This document shows, in pieces, positions 32,042 to 36,577 of a stretch of 64,000 nucleotides of DNA. Both the position numbers and the translations under genes were made by a program. The stretch is from Chryseobacterium tructae (GTDB lineage: Bacteria > Bacteroidota > Bacteroidia > Flavobacteriales > Weeksellaceae). The notes beneath the pieces are model-generated. The model was not told the origin of the DNA and did not search any database. It saw only the letters and a list, made by a program, of their open reading frames with translations. The DNA lies in assembly GCF_030409875.1 (NCBI RefSeq), contig NZ_JAUFQR010000001.1, forward strand, positions 1,364,001-1,428,000, written 5' to 3'. Position 1 is the first letter of the stretch; each line of letters opens with the position of its first letter.

Positions 32042-32821
32042 ATGGAAATCTTAAACTCAAAAATATTTGGCGAAGGTTCTACCGCTACGCCGCTTTTAGT
32101 ATTTCACGGATTGTTTGGAATGCTTGATAACTGGGGAAGCTTCGGGAAAGATCTTGGAGAATATCTTCCGGTACATCTTATTGATCTTAGAAATCATGGA
32201 AGAAGTTTTCATTCTGATGATATGTCTCATGATGATCTCGCAGATGATATTTTCCGCTATATGGAGCATTATGGGATTCAGAAAGCTCATGTTTTAGGAC
32301 ATTCACTGGGAGGGAAAGCGGTGATGCAGTTTGCAATTAAATATCCTGAAAAAGTAGAGAAACTGATTGTTGTCGATATTTCACCAAAAGCATATCCGCC
32401 ACATCACCAGGGAATCATCAAAGCCTTGGAAACGGTAGACTTTAATACCGTAGGTTCAAGAAATGATGTAGAGGCTGTTTTGGCTCAGTATATTCCTGAA
32501 AGATCAACCATACAGTTTTTAACAAAGAACCTGTATTGGGATGATGATAAAAAGCTGAATTGGAGATTCAACCTTAAAACGTTATCCGAAAAGTATAATG
32601 AATTTGTATCAAATGCAGTGAAATATGGCGTTTTTGAAGGAGAGGCTTTATTCATAGCAGGGGAGAAATCCAATTATATTTTACCACAAGATGAATATGG
32701 AATAAAGCAACAGTTCCCCAAAGCTAAAATCGTAACGGTTAAAAATGCTGGACATTGGGTACAAGCGGAAAATCCTATGGATTTTGCTAATGTTGTTAAG
32801 CAATTTCTTGGTTTAGATTAA
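32042..32821 (+). CDS. Alpha/beta-fold hydrolase (YbfF-like esterase)
   Basis: 259 residues. The nucleophile elbow GHSLGG (about residues 86-91), the oxyanion-hole HGLFGMLDNW region, DLRNHGRS and the catalytic H in NAGHWVQAENP are all present. The pattern fits the YbfF group of short-chain acyl esterases. It lies behind pdxJ and ahead of the graspetide genes; its spacing suggests it does not belong to that cluster. Confidence 0.88.
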   Translation: MEILNSKIFGEGSTATPLLVFHGLFGMLDNWGSFGKDLGEYLPVHLIDLRNHGRSFHSDDMSHDDLADDIFRYMEHYGIQKAHVLGHSLGGKAVMQFAIKYPEKVEKLIVVDISPKAYPPHHQGIIKALETVDFNTVGSRNDVEAVLAQYIPERSTIQFLTKNLYWDDDKKLNWRFNLKTLSEKYNEFVSNAVKYGVFEGEALFIAGEKSNYILPQDEYGIKQQFPKAKIVTVKNAGHWVQAENPMDFANVVKQFLGLD

Positions 32822-32899
32822 TAATATTCTTGATTTTTTGATGATATGTTAAAATTATCTTAAAAAATTGATTTATTTCTCTGTAAGTTGAAAAAAGTG

Positions 32900-32907
32900 T
32901 ATCTTCG
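32900..32907 (+). promoter_or_regulatory. Weak candidate -7 box for the graspetide precursor
   Basis: TATCTTCG resembles TAnnTTTG with one mismatch and lies 29 bases before the precursor ATG. No TTG is at the right distance; one occurs at 32868, a 29-base spacer. Support is weak. Confidence 0.3.
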
Positions 32908-32935
32908 GGTATCAAATAAATAAAAATATTAACTT

Positions 32936-33154
32936 ATGGAAAACAAAAAATCAACCAAAAAGCCATTTTTTGCGTCATTTCTTGAAAAACAACTTAAAGA
33001 TCCGGAAACAGTAAAAGGAGGAACAATTATTACAATCCCGGAGAGGGATAGTGTTACATTACCTACCTTAGACGGTGCCACTTCTAAGCTGAGCGATATG
33101 GATCATACAATGAAATATCCTTCTGACGGTGACGATGATACGATCTTACTATAA
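32936..33154 (+). CDS. Microviridin-type graspetide precursor peptide
   Basis: 72 residues. The leader contains PFFASFLE at residues 10-17, the recognition helix that ATP-grasp ligases of the microviridin family bind (usually PFFARFLE). The core TMKYPSDGDDD (residues 58-68) matches the TxKxPSDx(E/D)(E/D) pattern. By analogy, esters join T58 to D64 and S63 to D66, and an amide joins K60 to D67, giving a tricyclic cage. Asp replaces the usual Glu at both acceptor positions, so two rings would be one carbon smaller, and D68 gives a spare acceptor. A GG pair at residues 28-29 could mark leader removal. There is only one core, unlike multicore relatives. Confidence 0.9.
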   Translation: MENKKSTKKPFFASFLEKQLKDPETVKGGTIITIPERDSVTLPTLDGATSKLSDMDHTMKYPSDGDDDTILL

Positions 33155-33194
33155 AATGATTATTTTATAATAACATATTAATAAAATTGTAACG

Positions 33195-33229
33195 AAAAGG
33201 GAAACTTAAAAGGTTAAGTTTCCCTTTTT
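33195..33229 (+). terminator. Terminator/attenuator between precursor and ligase genes
   Basis: AAAAGGGAAACTTAA (33195-33209) pairs perfectly with 33214-33228 across the loop AAGG and ends in a T-run. It lies 41 bases after the precursor stop and 15 before the first ligase ATG. Partial read-through would give many precursor copies per enzyme, a common arrangement in RiPP operons. Confidence 0.85.
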
Positions 33230-33243
33230 AATAAAATCGGCAA

Positions 33244-34200
33244 ATGATTCTCTGTATCACCCATTCACAGGATTTTTATACTATTGATCATTTCTTTCAA
33301 TACCTTTCCTCTAAAAATATTCCTTATTTCAGACTGAATTCAGATCGTTTGAACCATCTTCAGAAGATCAGCGTCAATGAAAATTCTTTTGAGATAACTG
33401 ATGAGCATGGAAATACCCTTCATTCGGATATGATTAAAGGAGTATGGCACAGAAAAGCATGGCGGATCAGTATACCTGAAGAACTCGACCAGGACTATGA
33501 AAAAATATTCCTGAATGAATATACAAACCTTCGCTATAATCTGTTGACTCAATTAGAGCATCTGCCTTGGATCAATCCTTATGAGAATGAAAAGAAGATT
33601 GACGGAAATAAAATGTTTCAGTTGAAAATTGCCCAACGAAATAATCTGCTCATTCCGCCCACTATTTTTTCTAATGATGAAGAAAAAGTAAAAGCTTTTT
33701 TTGATCAATATTGTTCAGGAAAAGCGATTGCTAAACTTCATAGTGTAACCAGAAAAACAATGAGTGGTGAAGGGATCGTTTCTACAATGGTGATTGAAGA
33801 AGATACATTGGAAAACCTTTCGGATATAATCTATTGTCCCATGATTTTTCAGCCTTATATCGATAAGGAATACGAATTGAGAATCATGTATATAGACGGT
33901 GAGTTTTATACCGGAAAGATCAATAATAGTGAAAATGCAGATTGGAGAGTAAGTCATGAAAATTATTTCTGGATAGCTTATGAACTTCCGGATGATATCA
34001 AATCTAATCTTACTTCTATGATGAAGGAAATGGGATTGTATACCGGAGCTATTGATATGATCCGGGGAAAGGACAGGAAGTATTATTTTTTGGAAGTCAA
34101 TCCGCAGGGAGAATGGGGAATGCTTCAAAAAGAGCTGGGTTTTCCCATCGCAGAAAGAATTGCCGAAAAGCTTATCAAAAGAATCAATATCCATGAATAA
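33244..34200 (+). CDS. Graspetide ATP-grasp ligase, first of two
   Basis: 318 residues in the MvdC/MvdD family of peptide ligases. The N-terminal domain starts LCITHSQDFYTIDHFFQYL, with the family motif VWHRKAW at residues 67-73 (usually VWxRR). ATP-grasp features follow: K in AKLHSVTRKTMSGEG and the metal-binding FLEVNPQGEWGML (E284, N286). These ligases activate Asp or Glu side chains as acyl phosphates and join them to Thr, Ser or Lys. The end GFPIAERIAEKL suggests the ester-forming type (MvdD/MdnC), but this is not certain. It overlaps the next gene by 8 bases. Confidence 0.88.
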   Translation: MILCITHSQDFYTIDHFFQYLSSKNIPYFRLNSDRLNHLQKISVNENSFEITDEHGNTLHSDMIKGVWHRKAWRISIPEELDQDYEKIFLNEYTNLRYNLLTQLEHLPWINPYENEKKIDGNKMFQLKIAQRNNLLIPPTIFSNDEEKVKAFFDQYCSGKAIAKLHSVTRKTMSGEGIVSTMVIEEDTLENLSDIIYCPMIFQPYIDKEYELRIMYIDGEFYTGKINNSENADWRVSHENYFWIAYELPDDIKSNLTSMMKEMGLYTGAIDMIRGKDRKYYFLEVNPQGEWGMLQKELGFPIAERIAEKLIKRINIHE

Positions 34201-35197
34201 AATATTAATTATAACACATACTGCAGATAATTTTTCCATTGAAAAAGTAACAGAATATATTCAGGATAACCATTGTGAGGTTATTCGATTTGATGTTGAT
34301 TTATATCCGTTGCAGAATAAATTGTCTACCGTTTTCCAGGATGGAGAATGGATTACAATCCTCGAGACAGCAGAAAAAAAATACCGGTTAGATGATATTT
34401 CAGCAGTTTGGTATCGCCGGGCTTATAATATAGGAAAAGGATTAAAAGAAGAGATAGATGGAAAGTTCTATAATGCGGCGATGGGAGAAATTCGCAATAC
34501 ATTATTTGGGTTTCTTGAATCTATTGATGCGTATTCATTAGGGAAACCAAGTGTTTACAGGAGGCTTGATAGCAAAGAAGAACAACTGAAAATTGCTCAT
34601 AAAATAGGACTTACTGTTCCCGAAACTTGTCTTACCAATAATCCTGAAGAAGCAAAGCAATTTATTTTGAAACATCAGAATGTTGTGGCTAAAATGCAAA
34701 CAGGCTTTGCGATCTATGAGGATGGTGTAGAAAATGTAGTGTTCACCAATGTTGTGAGTGAAGATAAACTTGAAGAACTGGATTCACTTTTGTATTGCCC
34801 GATGCAGTTTCAGAAGATGATTCAAAAGAAAAAGGAACTTCGGGTTACCATAGTGGGAAGAGATGTGTACGCTTTTGAAGTAGATTCCCAACAGTTTGAA
34901 GATGCTAAAGTGGATTGGAGAAAAGATGGTGTTAATTTGTTAGATAAATGGACACCGACAGAATTACCAACAGAGGTTCAAGAAAAACTTCTGGAGCTTC
35001 TCGATGTTTACAATGTTGACTACGGAGCAATAGACATTATTGTTTCTCCGGAGGATGAGTATTATTTTATAGAAATCAATGCCGCAGGAGAATTTTTCTG
35101 GCTGGATAATCGTACGGAAGGAAACCTGATCTCTAAAAGTATTGCAGATGTTTTGTGTGATAAAGCTCCGAGGAGAGACAATGTAGTGATGGTATAA
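34193..35197 (+). CDS. Graspetide ATP-grasp ligase, second of two
   Basis: From the ATG at 34193 the product has 334 residues. It begins NKILIITHTADNFSIEKV and carries VWYRR at residues 72-76, an intact copy of the family motif. The metal-binding segment is FIEINAAGEFFWLDN (E294, N296). The start lies inside the end of the first ligase gene, so translation is coupled. Two ligases are expected for a microviridin-type product: one makes the esters and one the Lys-Asp amide. The EFFWLD end suggests the amide-forming type (MvdC/MdnB), but assignment is tentative. No GNAT, transporter or peptidase gene follows. Confidence 0.88.
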   Translation: MNKILIITHTADNFSIEKVTEYIQDNHCEVIRFDVDLYPLQNKLSTVFQDGEWITILETAEKKYRLDDISAVWYRRAYNIGKGLKEEIDGKFYNAAMGEIRNTLFGFLESIDAYSLGKPSVYRRLDSKEEQLKIAHKIGLTVPETCLTNNPEEAKQFILKHQNVVAKMQTGFAIYEDGVENVVFTNVVSEDKLEELDSLLYCPMQFQKMIQKKKELRVTIVGRDVYAFEVDSQQFEDAKVDWRKDGVNLLDKWTPTELPTEVQEKLLELLDVYNVDYGAIDIIVSPEDEYYFIEINAAGEFFWLDNRTEGNLISKSIADVLCDKAPRRDNVVMV

Positions 35198-35228
35198 TGA
35201 TATAAATGATTAACTTTTTATATAGTAG

Positions 35229-35262
35229 TCCTGGAGGTTTTTTAGCTTCCAGGGCTTTTTTT
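35229..35262 (+). terminator. Terminator of the graspetide operon
   Basis: CCTGGA and TCCAGG form a stem, extended by G-T pairing, followed by a run of seven T. It lies 32 bases after the second ligase stop and marks the end of the cluster. Confidence 0.7.
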
Positions 35263-35463
35263 AACCCCCTCTTCCAAAAGATAGGGATTTTCACTAAGCT
35301 TCATAGACTTCTTATAAACAAAGCTGGTAACTTAAATTTCTTAAGTGTTCAAAAACTTTTGTGTCTAAAATAATAAGGATCTCTTTTTAGTTTCATATTT
35401 TGTGATTTCCAGAATGATAATATTGGTTAAATAAACTTGAATTTTGCTTTAAAAATCGCAAAT

Positions 35464-35493
35464 TTGCAAAAGCAGTTTTTTAGGTAACTTTTG
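35464..35493 (+). promoter_or_regulatory. Candidate promoter of the epimerase-acyl-CoA synthetase pair
   Basis: TTG (35464-35466), an 18-base spacer and TAACTTTTG (35485-35493) approximate the Bacteroidetes promoter, with one extra base in the -7 box. The start codon lies 70 bases downstream. The rest of 35263-35563 shows no gene. Confidence 0.4.
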
Positions 35494-35563
35494 CAGAAAC
35501 CTGAAGAATTGCCGGATAGAAAATATTGTCATATTTTAGTCAGCAATCAAGTAACATACATTA

Positions 35564-36577
35564 ATGGTTTTTGTAACGGGTGCAACCGGAATTCTGGGGA
35601 GAATAATCGTGCTGGAGCTTCTTAAAAGAGGTAAAAACGTACGTGCTTCCAAAAGACCGGGCAGCAATTTAAACGAAGTAAGGCATTCATACAGCTTTTA
35701 TACGGAGAATCCTGATGATTTTTTCAATAAAATCGAATGGATAAATGTGGATTTTGAAGATATTGATTCCTTAAAAGAAGCCTTGAAAGGGGTAGATGAG
35801 GTTTATCATTGTGCCGCAAAAGTAAGTTTTCATCCCAAAGATGAAAAAGAGATGTATGCTACCAATATTAAAGGGACTGAAAACTTATTGTATGCCTGCG
35901 AAGGATCCGAAGTTAAAAAGTTTCTGCATGTAAGCTCTGTAGCCGTTTTAGATAACTATAACGAAAAAGGAGAACTGGATGAAGAGTCTGATTTTAATCC
36001 AAAATTGGAGCATTCTGCTTATGCCATTTCCAAACATCTATCTGAAATGGAAGCCTGGAGAGCTTCTGCCGAAGGAATGAATATAGTAATCATTAATCCT
36101 GGTATGATCGTAGGAAGTGGAAACTGGACACAAAGCAGTGGTGAGCTTTTTTCAACCTTTGAAGACAATAGTTTTACCTTTGCCGGAGGATCTGCTTATG
36201 TAGATGTAAGAGATGTTGCTAAAACTGCGATTGAACTGATGGAAAACAATATTTTTGGAGAACGATTTATCATTGTTTCTGAAAATAACAGATATGCCGA
36301 TCTGGCAAAACAGATCAGAACCCGATTGGGACTTAAAGAGGCGAGAATCCTTACAAGATCTCAATTGAATATAGGAAAACTAGCCAATACTCTTTTGGGA
36401 TGGCTGATTCCTAAACTAAAAATGGCTACAGAATCAAATATTGAGGCGATTTCCTCATTCAACACCATTTCCAATCACAAAGTCACGGAAAAACTGAATT
36501 ACCAGTTTATTCCAATCCAAGAAAGCATCGACTTTCACCTGAACAATTATATTAACGACAAAAAGCTGAAGAAATGA
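35564..36577 (+). CDS. NAD-dependent epimerase/dehydratase (extended SDR)
   Basis: 337 residues. The nucleotide-binding motif VTGATGILGRI (residues 4-14) and the SDR catalytic Y-x-x-x-K (YAISK, about residues 149-153) are present, with INPGMIVG behind. Extended SDRs act on sugar nucleotides, flavonoids or steroid-like substrates. The gene overlaps the acyl-CoA synthetase by 4 bases (ATGA), so they are cotranslated; a role in lipid metabolism is possible but not shown. Confidence 0.85.
   Translation: MVFVTGATGILGRIIVLELLKRGKNVRASKRPGSNLNEVRHSYSFYTENPDDFFNKIEWINVDFEDIDSLKEALKGVDEVYHCAAKVSFHPKDEKEMYATNIKGTENLLYACEGSEVKKFLHVSSVAVLDNYNEKGELDEESDFNPKLEHSAYAISKHLSEMEAWRASAEGMNIVIINPGMIVGSGNWTQSSGELFSTFEDNSFTFAGGSAYVDVRDVAKTAIELMENNIFGERFIIVSENNRYADLAKQIRTRLGLKEARILTRSQLNIGKLANTLLGWLIPKLKMATESNIEAISSFNTISNHKVTEKLNYQFIPIQESIDFHLNNYINDKKLKK

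Follow-up and report, generated by a model that had tools for sequence, protein, structure and literature searches.

The window, a stretch of 64,000 nucleotides from Chryseobacterium tructae (G000:C1:1364001-1428000, within the 5.63 Mb own genome), very likely contains a chryseoviridin-type graspetide locus that would give rise to a six-ring product and in which a hairpin would limit expression of the ligases. The genes, the modules and tail of the precursor, the hairpin and the conservation of all of these are seen directly in the DNA. The locus is an ordinary example of a cluster present in most Chryseobacterium species, and this type of locus has already been published (PMC8939145); the conserved hairpin is the one feature that is absent from the literature surveyed on the locus. 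The cluster product would be a peptide rich in rings that belongs to the family of protease inhibitors.

The precursor gene cdnA (32936-33154, + strand) encodes a chryseoviridin-type protein of 72 aa that scored 75.1 bits against NF033738 (cut-off 26) and 29.1 bits against PF12559 (cut-off 21) and thus is a member of these families; its relatives in Chryseobacterium are annotated at the source as microviridin/marinostatin family. It is followed on the same strand by cdnB (33244-34200), encoding an MvdC/MdnB-like ATP-grasp ligase of 318 aa with the motifs VWHRK and EVN that is predicted to form the lactam, and by cdnC (34193-35197, ATG at 34193), encoding an MvdD/MdnC-like ATP-grasp ligase of 334 aa with the motifs VWYRR and EIN that is predicted to form macrolactones; the two ligase genes overlap by 8 bases (34193-34200). 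CdnC scored 482.8 bits against TIGR04184 (equivalog cut-off 475) and thus belongs to the MvdD/MdnC family. CdnB scored 74.7 bits against PF21068 (cut-off 27), and its top-scoring family was TIGR04185, matched over the full length with 410.5 bits; as this score is under the equivalog cut-off of 425, CdnB is classified here as MvdC-like only. The closest PDB structures were 7m4s (AMdnB) for CdnB and 7mgv (CdnC, E 5.3e-188) for CdnC. The locus is neighboured by pdxJ and an alpha/beta hydrolase gene upstream and an NAD-dependent epimerase gene downstream, and the arrangement of precursor, CdnB and CdnC, with the alpha/beta hydrolase on one side and the epimerase on the other, matches the chryseoviridin locus in the available part of PMC8939145. 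The first-pass annotation had described a 72-residue precursor with PFFASFLE and TMKYPSDGDDD and two ATP-grasp ligases with an 8-base overlap, all of which is borne out, and had called the cluster a microviridin-type graspetide cluster, which is right at the class level.

Across the whole own genome, NF033738 found a single precursor, i.e. the product of the gene at 32936-33154. Elsewhere in this genome, an ATP-grasp maturase of 309 aa (L083, G000:C1:515210-515515), for which TIGR04187 was the best match with 215.8 bits (cut-off 350), adjoins an ORF of 114 aa whose three repeats end in SDSDD or GTDDD; L083 is probably another multi-core graspetide locus. Moreover, a grasp-with-spasm-like ATP-grasp gene (L084, G000:C1:1573660-1573908; TIGR04192 224.7 bits, cut-off 230) is preceded by five ORFs of 60-63 aa with similar leaders, 4 of the 5 with HGG.

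A protein search with the precursor returned 164 relatives, and the organism names shown among the 120 listed were Chryseobacterium. The locus, flanked by hydrolase and epimerase and with four precursor clades, was reported for 47 species related to C. gregarium as well as for C. gregarium itself (available part of PMC8939145), and microviridin clusters were reported in four Chryseobacterium genomes (available part of PMC8151938). CdnC (E <= 1e-60) was detected in 142 of 173 genus genomes and, across 320 genomes of the family, in 1 of 33 genera. From the 88 loci of a CdnC scan, the 80 best were taken, a set biased toward close relatives. These 80 loci together with the window and L081, which is the window again, contained 193 precursor ORFs, and 192 after L081 was dropped.

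The spacer between cdnA and cdnB contains a conserved hairpin (33197-33229, + strand), in which the arms GGAAACTT and AAGTTTCC are extended by adjoining pairs and followed by a T-tract, and in which the stem ends ~20 bases upstream of the cdnB start. With its G-C pairs, the T-tract behind the stem and its location 3' of a coding region, this likely intrinsic terminator/attenuator is best read as an intrinsic terminator that would limit ligase expression. The generic promoter/terminator scan did not list it; in our opinion, this is because the A-tract pairs with the T-tract. An Rfam scan of 32800-35600 gave two matches, both far below gathering scores. A literature search on hairpins and attenuators, whether of this locus or of RiPP operons in general, gave nothing on this locus in titles and abstracts, and in the available text of PMC8939145 the terms terminator, attenuat-, stem-loop, promoter and intergenic did not occur and 'hairpin' occurred in a reference only.

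By a simple rule, an inverted repeat with T-tract was detected in the precursor-cdnB spacer of 80 of 81 loci, and the locus missed by this rule, L061, does have the hairpin, with two G.U pairs. In the alignment of the 81 spacers, the 3' arm AAGTTTCC was 100% identical, the 5' arm GGAAACTT 96-100% and the T-tract (33225-33229) 95-100%, as compared with 14-90% for the upstream spacer (33155-33196). In the 17 core stem columns, mean pairwise identity was 0.989, as compared with 0.402 for 41 columns of the upstream spacer and 0.408 for the loop; at fourfold sites, it was 0.438 in cdnB and 0.424 in cdnC (80 loci each, L026 left out). When both ligase genes were scanned, none of 949 and none of 1018 9-base windows reached a mean top frequency of 0.99. 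As a control served a terminator-like hairpin 3' of cdnC (35227-35256, + strand), which is poorly conserved in sequence and much more variable than the cdnA-cdnB hairpin, in an alignment that contains a wrong-frame row for L026, whose two ligase genes share a single frame. By a loose rule that accepts some hairpin with T-tract, 2 of 109 spacers between precursor paralogues were positive, and so were 58 of 405 shuffled precursor-cdnB spacers.

The RNA folding z of the cdnA-cdnB hairpin was -3.82. In a 48-locus subset of the 81, pairing was present in 94.7% of cells, and two-sided changes occurred in 19 cells versus 9.9 in shuffled data, carried by only 2 pairs versus 2.3 shuffled; the third pair from the outside was A-U in 28, G-C in 17 and G-U in 3 of these loci, and the six inner stem pairs were invariant, an invariance that by itself is uninformative on pairing. 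In a 28-locus subset of the 81, the paired fraction of cells was 98.2%. The exact arm pattern was absent in 5 of the 81 loci (L015, L025, L026, L029 and L061); in these five as well as in L125 and L127, which also lack the exact pattern, an A-to-G change in the 5' arm faces an intact U and gives a G.U pair, with fewer change events than loci since L015, L025 and L026 are close kin. Such changes would be paired only as RNA of the operon strand. In L074 and L075, a 3'-side change has removed one pair that lies outside the 8-base arms, beside the loop. In the 76 loci with the exact pattern, the gap between the 8-mers was 5, 6, 7, 8 and 9 bases in 2, 18, 47, 7 and 2 loci, respectively.

The exact arm pattern occurs in a single place in the 5.6 Mb of the own genome, in one place each in 75 of the 80 relatives' loci and in 134 of the 173 genus genomes, which comprise 132 with pattern and CdnC, 10 with CdnC only, 2 with the pattern only and 29 with neither. 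R1, a covariance model derived from 28 genus loci, which it fits by construction, matched all 142 CdnC-positive genus genomes (E <= 5.4e-5), and in CdnC-negative genus genomes no match was better than 1.3e-4 except in G136 and G157, in which the same locus is interrupted by a contig end. The hairpin lay 998-1001 bases upstream of the CdnC start in 30 of 30 CdnC-centred loci (L121-L150, own included), and in 30 of 30 hairpin-centred loci (L091-L120) a cdnB start lay at most 90 bases away and a PSD precursor frame at most 250 bases away. In the window, R1 scored 59.7 bits on the + strand and 44.9 bits on the - strand at the same place, and there were weak matches at two other places (E 0.048 and 0.49). 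Of the 147 family genomes from outside the genus, 6 had a match at 5.4e-5 or better, the best being G221 (2.4e-7). A restriction of the hairpin sequence to this locus was considered and is weakened by the R1 matches at E <= 0.01 in 63 of these 147 genomes.

In G221 (C8:14965-15009) and G308 (C20:152908-152953), the GGAAACTT..AAGTTTCC stem, together with its A- and T-tracts, is flanked by convergent genes. This stem is apparently a terminator form shared with two other genera of the family, and the position between convergent genes is a site for a two-way terminator and therefore supports a function in termination. The conservation of the arm sequence exceeds the needs of a plain terminator, and termination alone leaves the fixed 3' arm unexplained. 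Instead of a plain terminator, the hairpin might be a sequence-specific RNA regulatory element, i.e. a switch that is bound by a protein or an RNA and acts on translation of the ligases or on termination, which we consider unlikely. The invariant 3' arm AAGTTTCC (81 of 81 loci) opposite a 5' arm that allows A-to-G wobble, the variable control terminator 3' of cdnC and the ~20 bases between the stem end and the cdnB start are in line with such an element; against it, the equal stem that sits between convergent genes in G221 and G308, both from other genera, resembles a generic terminator, and no regulator gene was seen in the locus. It is similarly doubtful that the hairpin is a dedicated RNA switch in which a factor or the ribosome would read the invariant 3' arm and the T-tract and so match ligase synthesis to precursor supply genus-wide; if true, this would be a conserved stoichiometry control for a RiPP operon across Chryseobacterium. 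A terminator limiting ligase expression remains our preferred reading.

The precursor carries the leader recognition motif PFFASFLE at residues 10-17 (32963-32986, + strand), which is of the PFFARFL type described in the available part of PMC8939145, and a GG doublet at residues 28-29 (33017-33022, + strand), at which the leader would likely be cleaved. Past GG, it reads TIITIPERD SV TLPTLD GA TSKLSD MDH TMKYPSDGDDD TILL. Three T-x4-D units are present between GG and the tail: module 1, TIPERD (T33-D38; 33032-33049), module 2, TLPTLD (T41-D46; 33056-33073), and module 3, TSKLSD (T49-D54; 33080-33097), all on the + strand and each predicted to form a single macrolactone. They are followed by the microviridin-like terminal core TMKYPSDGDDD (33107-33139, + strand), for which we predict the links T58-D64, S63-D66 and K60-D67, with D68 spare; these were placed by position homology to microviridin, whose linkage pattern presumably applies here. 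The motif TxxxxDxxxTxKxPSDxD[DE], given for precursors of chryseoviridin loci in the available part of PMC8939145, is present in the precursor as TSKLSDMDHTMKYPSDGDD.

At least three T-x4-D units were obtained by chance in this precursor region in 0.155% of 100000 shuffles. The 192 precursors contained 607 units as compared with a shuffled mean of 110.5 and a maximum of 139 (1000 sets). Of the 81 ligase-proximal rows, 49 had three units, 31 had two and 1 had none, with L008 represented by its upstream copy because the frame of its proximal copy is disturbed, and with the region of L066 and L078, which start at an upstream ATG, taken from residue 27 rather than from GG. The 'single core' of the first-pass annotation is thus in fact preceded by three modules, as in chryseoviridin precursors, and the product, for which a loss of three waters had been expected, is predicted to lose six if all predicted rings form. 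This prediction follows from the enrichment of T-x4-D units, from their conservation across the single-precursor group to which the window belongs, where the T and D of all three modules are kept in 9 of 9 loci as the intervening residues vary, and from the available part of PMC8939145, according to which the variable part of the core could give 1-3 additional linkages, there termed lactam. The full product therefore probably has six rings, not three: three single rings, two tail esters and one lactam. The six-ring product would differ by -108 Da, with neutral monoisotopic masses of 7875.97 for the full precursor with Met1 and 4582.23 for residues 30-72; the correction of the ring number decides the target masses for mass spectrometry.

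A single-core tricyclic microviridin with all-Asp acceptors, in which only TMKYPSDGDDD would be modified, three waters lost and residues 30-57 left as a linear spacer, is quite improbable: the tail by itself fits the classical TxKxPSD core motif, and genus precursors are classed as class I with one core per leader (both in the available part of PMC7823629), but the invariance of the module T and D in 9 of 9 group loci with variable residues between them, the 607 modules in 192 precursors versus 110.5 expected and the 1-3 further linkages possible from module residues (available part of PMC8939145) argue against it. The six-ring product is the reading that we retain.

The two residues after PSDx were DE in 95, DD in 93, DA in 3 and DS in 1 of the 192 precursors, i.e. 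Asp was present at the second acceptor in all 192 and at the third in 93; these counts come from related loci, and no probability is to be read from them. Ligase-proximal precursors had DD in 74 and DE in 7 of 81 cases, and 71 of the 74 proximal DD rows also had the spare third Asp; the 111 non-proximal precursors had DE in 88, DD in 19, DA in 3 and DS in 1. The all-Asp acceptor set, initially taken as unusual, is thus the usual form in ligase-proximal precursors of the genus (74 of 81). The Lys donor was present in 188 of 192 precursors, and the other 4 had Arg. Because the third acceptor is mostly Asp in proximal and mostly Glu in other precursors of the same loci, CdnB probably accepts both Asp and Glu as third acceptor.

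A profile search of open frames in these loci found two more, damaged, precursor copies, a ligase-proximal copy with a disturbed N-terminal frame (L008:3731-3982) and a truncated copy (L063:3372-3530). Damaged copies included, the 81 loci had 1, 2, 3, 4 and 5 precursors in 15, 33, 21, 10 and 2 cases, respectively. In a CdnC tree of 81 rows, from which only the window's group was used as it includes the wrong-frame row of L026, the window grouped with L001 (support 100/96), and nine single-precursor loci, i.e. the window, L001-L006, L011 and L080, formed one group (88/88, not starred). The remaining single-precursor loci are located elsewhere in the tree (L045; L071-L073; L074-L075), and the single-precursor label requires four changes. 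A single loss of the upstream precursors in the window's lineage is likely. In L026 (Chryseobacterium sp. ERMR1:04), cdnB and cdnC form one open frame of 651 aa, and the open frame around CdnC at G104:C10:222994-223992 has 660 aa; if the assemblies are right, L026 and G104 contain a natural fusion of both ligases.

Precursor-ligase hairpins are known in other RiPP operons, e.g. that of nisin. In the mechanism that we propose, with ring pattern and enzyme roles modelled on characterised relatives, CdnC would bind the PFFASFLE leader, join Thr to Asp side chains in the three successive T-x4-D modules and next form the two tail esters T58-D64 and S63-D66; CdnB would add the lactam K60-D67, and leader removal would occur at GG, perhaps through a C39 peptidase-transporter whose gene lies outside the locus. 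Transcripts begun before the precursor would mostly end at the hairpin (33197-33229), and read-through would yield less of the two ligase genes, so that precursor exceeds enzyme. Termination as well as cleavage, export and target are predictions, and the conserved hairpin could explain precursor excess over enzyme in a RiPP operon. That the inverted repeat is instead a DNA operator for a dimeric regulator is very improbable, since, for all that the palindrome with the exact arm pattern occurs once in the own genome and once in each of 75 of 80 relatives' loci, the 5-9 base gap variation would rotate the half-sites and the arm changes are A-to-G changes in the 5' arm that keep pairing only in RNA of the operon strand.

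No peptidase, protease or transporter gene was seen in the window's locus. In L071, a 718-aa ABC transporter (L071:6009-8165) with a C39 peptidase-like start (MAKITYYRQLDSMDCGPTC) is encoded between cdnC and the epimerase gene, and in L074, as judged by eye, a similar transporter frame begins at this position. In NCBIfam, the L071 transporter best matched peptide-export ABC transporters, with the top-ranked matches under their cut-offs; it is a candidate for both leader proteolysis and export. The own-genome proteins most closely related to it, C2:126767-128941 and C1:1183074-1185254, share 45-46% identity with it and overlap two of the four PF03412 matches; for leader removal, they are no more than candidates.

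As compared with microviridin J/K of cyanobacteria (MdnA, MdnB and MdnC), the leader motif, the TxKxPSD core and two ATP-grasp ligases are common to both; by contrast, the window has Asp instead of the Glu of cyanobacterial microviridins at the second and third acceptors and three extra T-x4-D modules, and no acetyltransferase or transporter gene was seen adjoining its ligases. Marinostatin, like the window, has Asp acceptors after PSD in its core; however, it is bicyclic without a lactam, whereas the window has the Lys and the CdnB ligase. The marinostatin leader is related to that of the window (available part of PMC7823629). In AMdnA/AMdnC of Anabaena PCC 7120, a single leader precedes several ringed units, as in the window, but the AMdnA units are full microviridin cores whereas the three units in the window are T-x4-D only; the acids of the second macrolactone in AMdnA are E53, E78 and D95, i.e. 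Asp in one of three cores (available part of PMC5934393).

Among the systems compared, the chryseoviridin locus of C. gregarium shares with the window the leader, the T-x4-D modules and the PSD tail, and the window CdnC and its counterpart in C. gregarium DSM 19109 (L066) share 82% identity. Zhao et al. 2021 reportedly found CdnA3 to have four consecutive small rings followed by a microviridin-like end. CdnA3 is the characterised chryseoviridin peptide in the available part of PMC8939145, in which the locus likewise has an alpha/beta hydrolase before and an epimerase after it. The window has one precursor gene versus four in L066, and its tail ends in GDDD, as does that of the ligase-proximal precursor of L066, whereas the third-in-order precursor of L066 ends in SDE.
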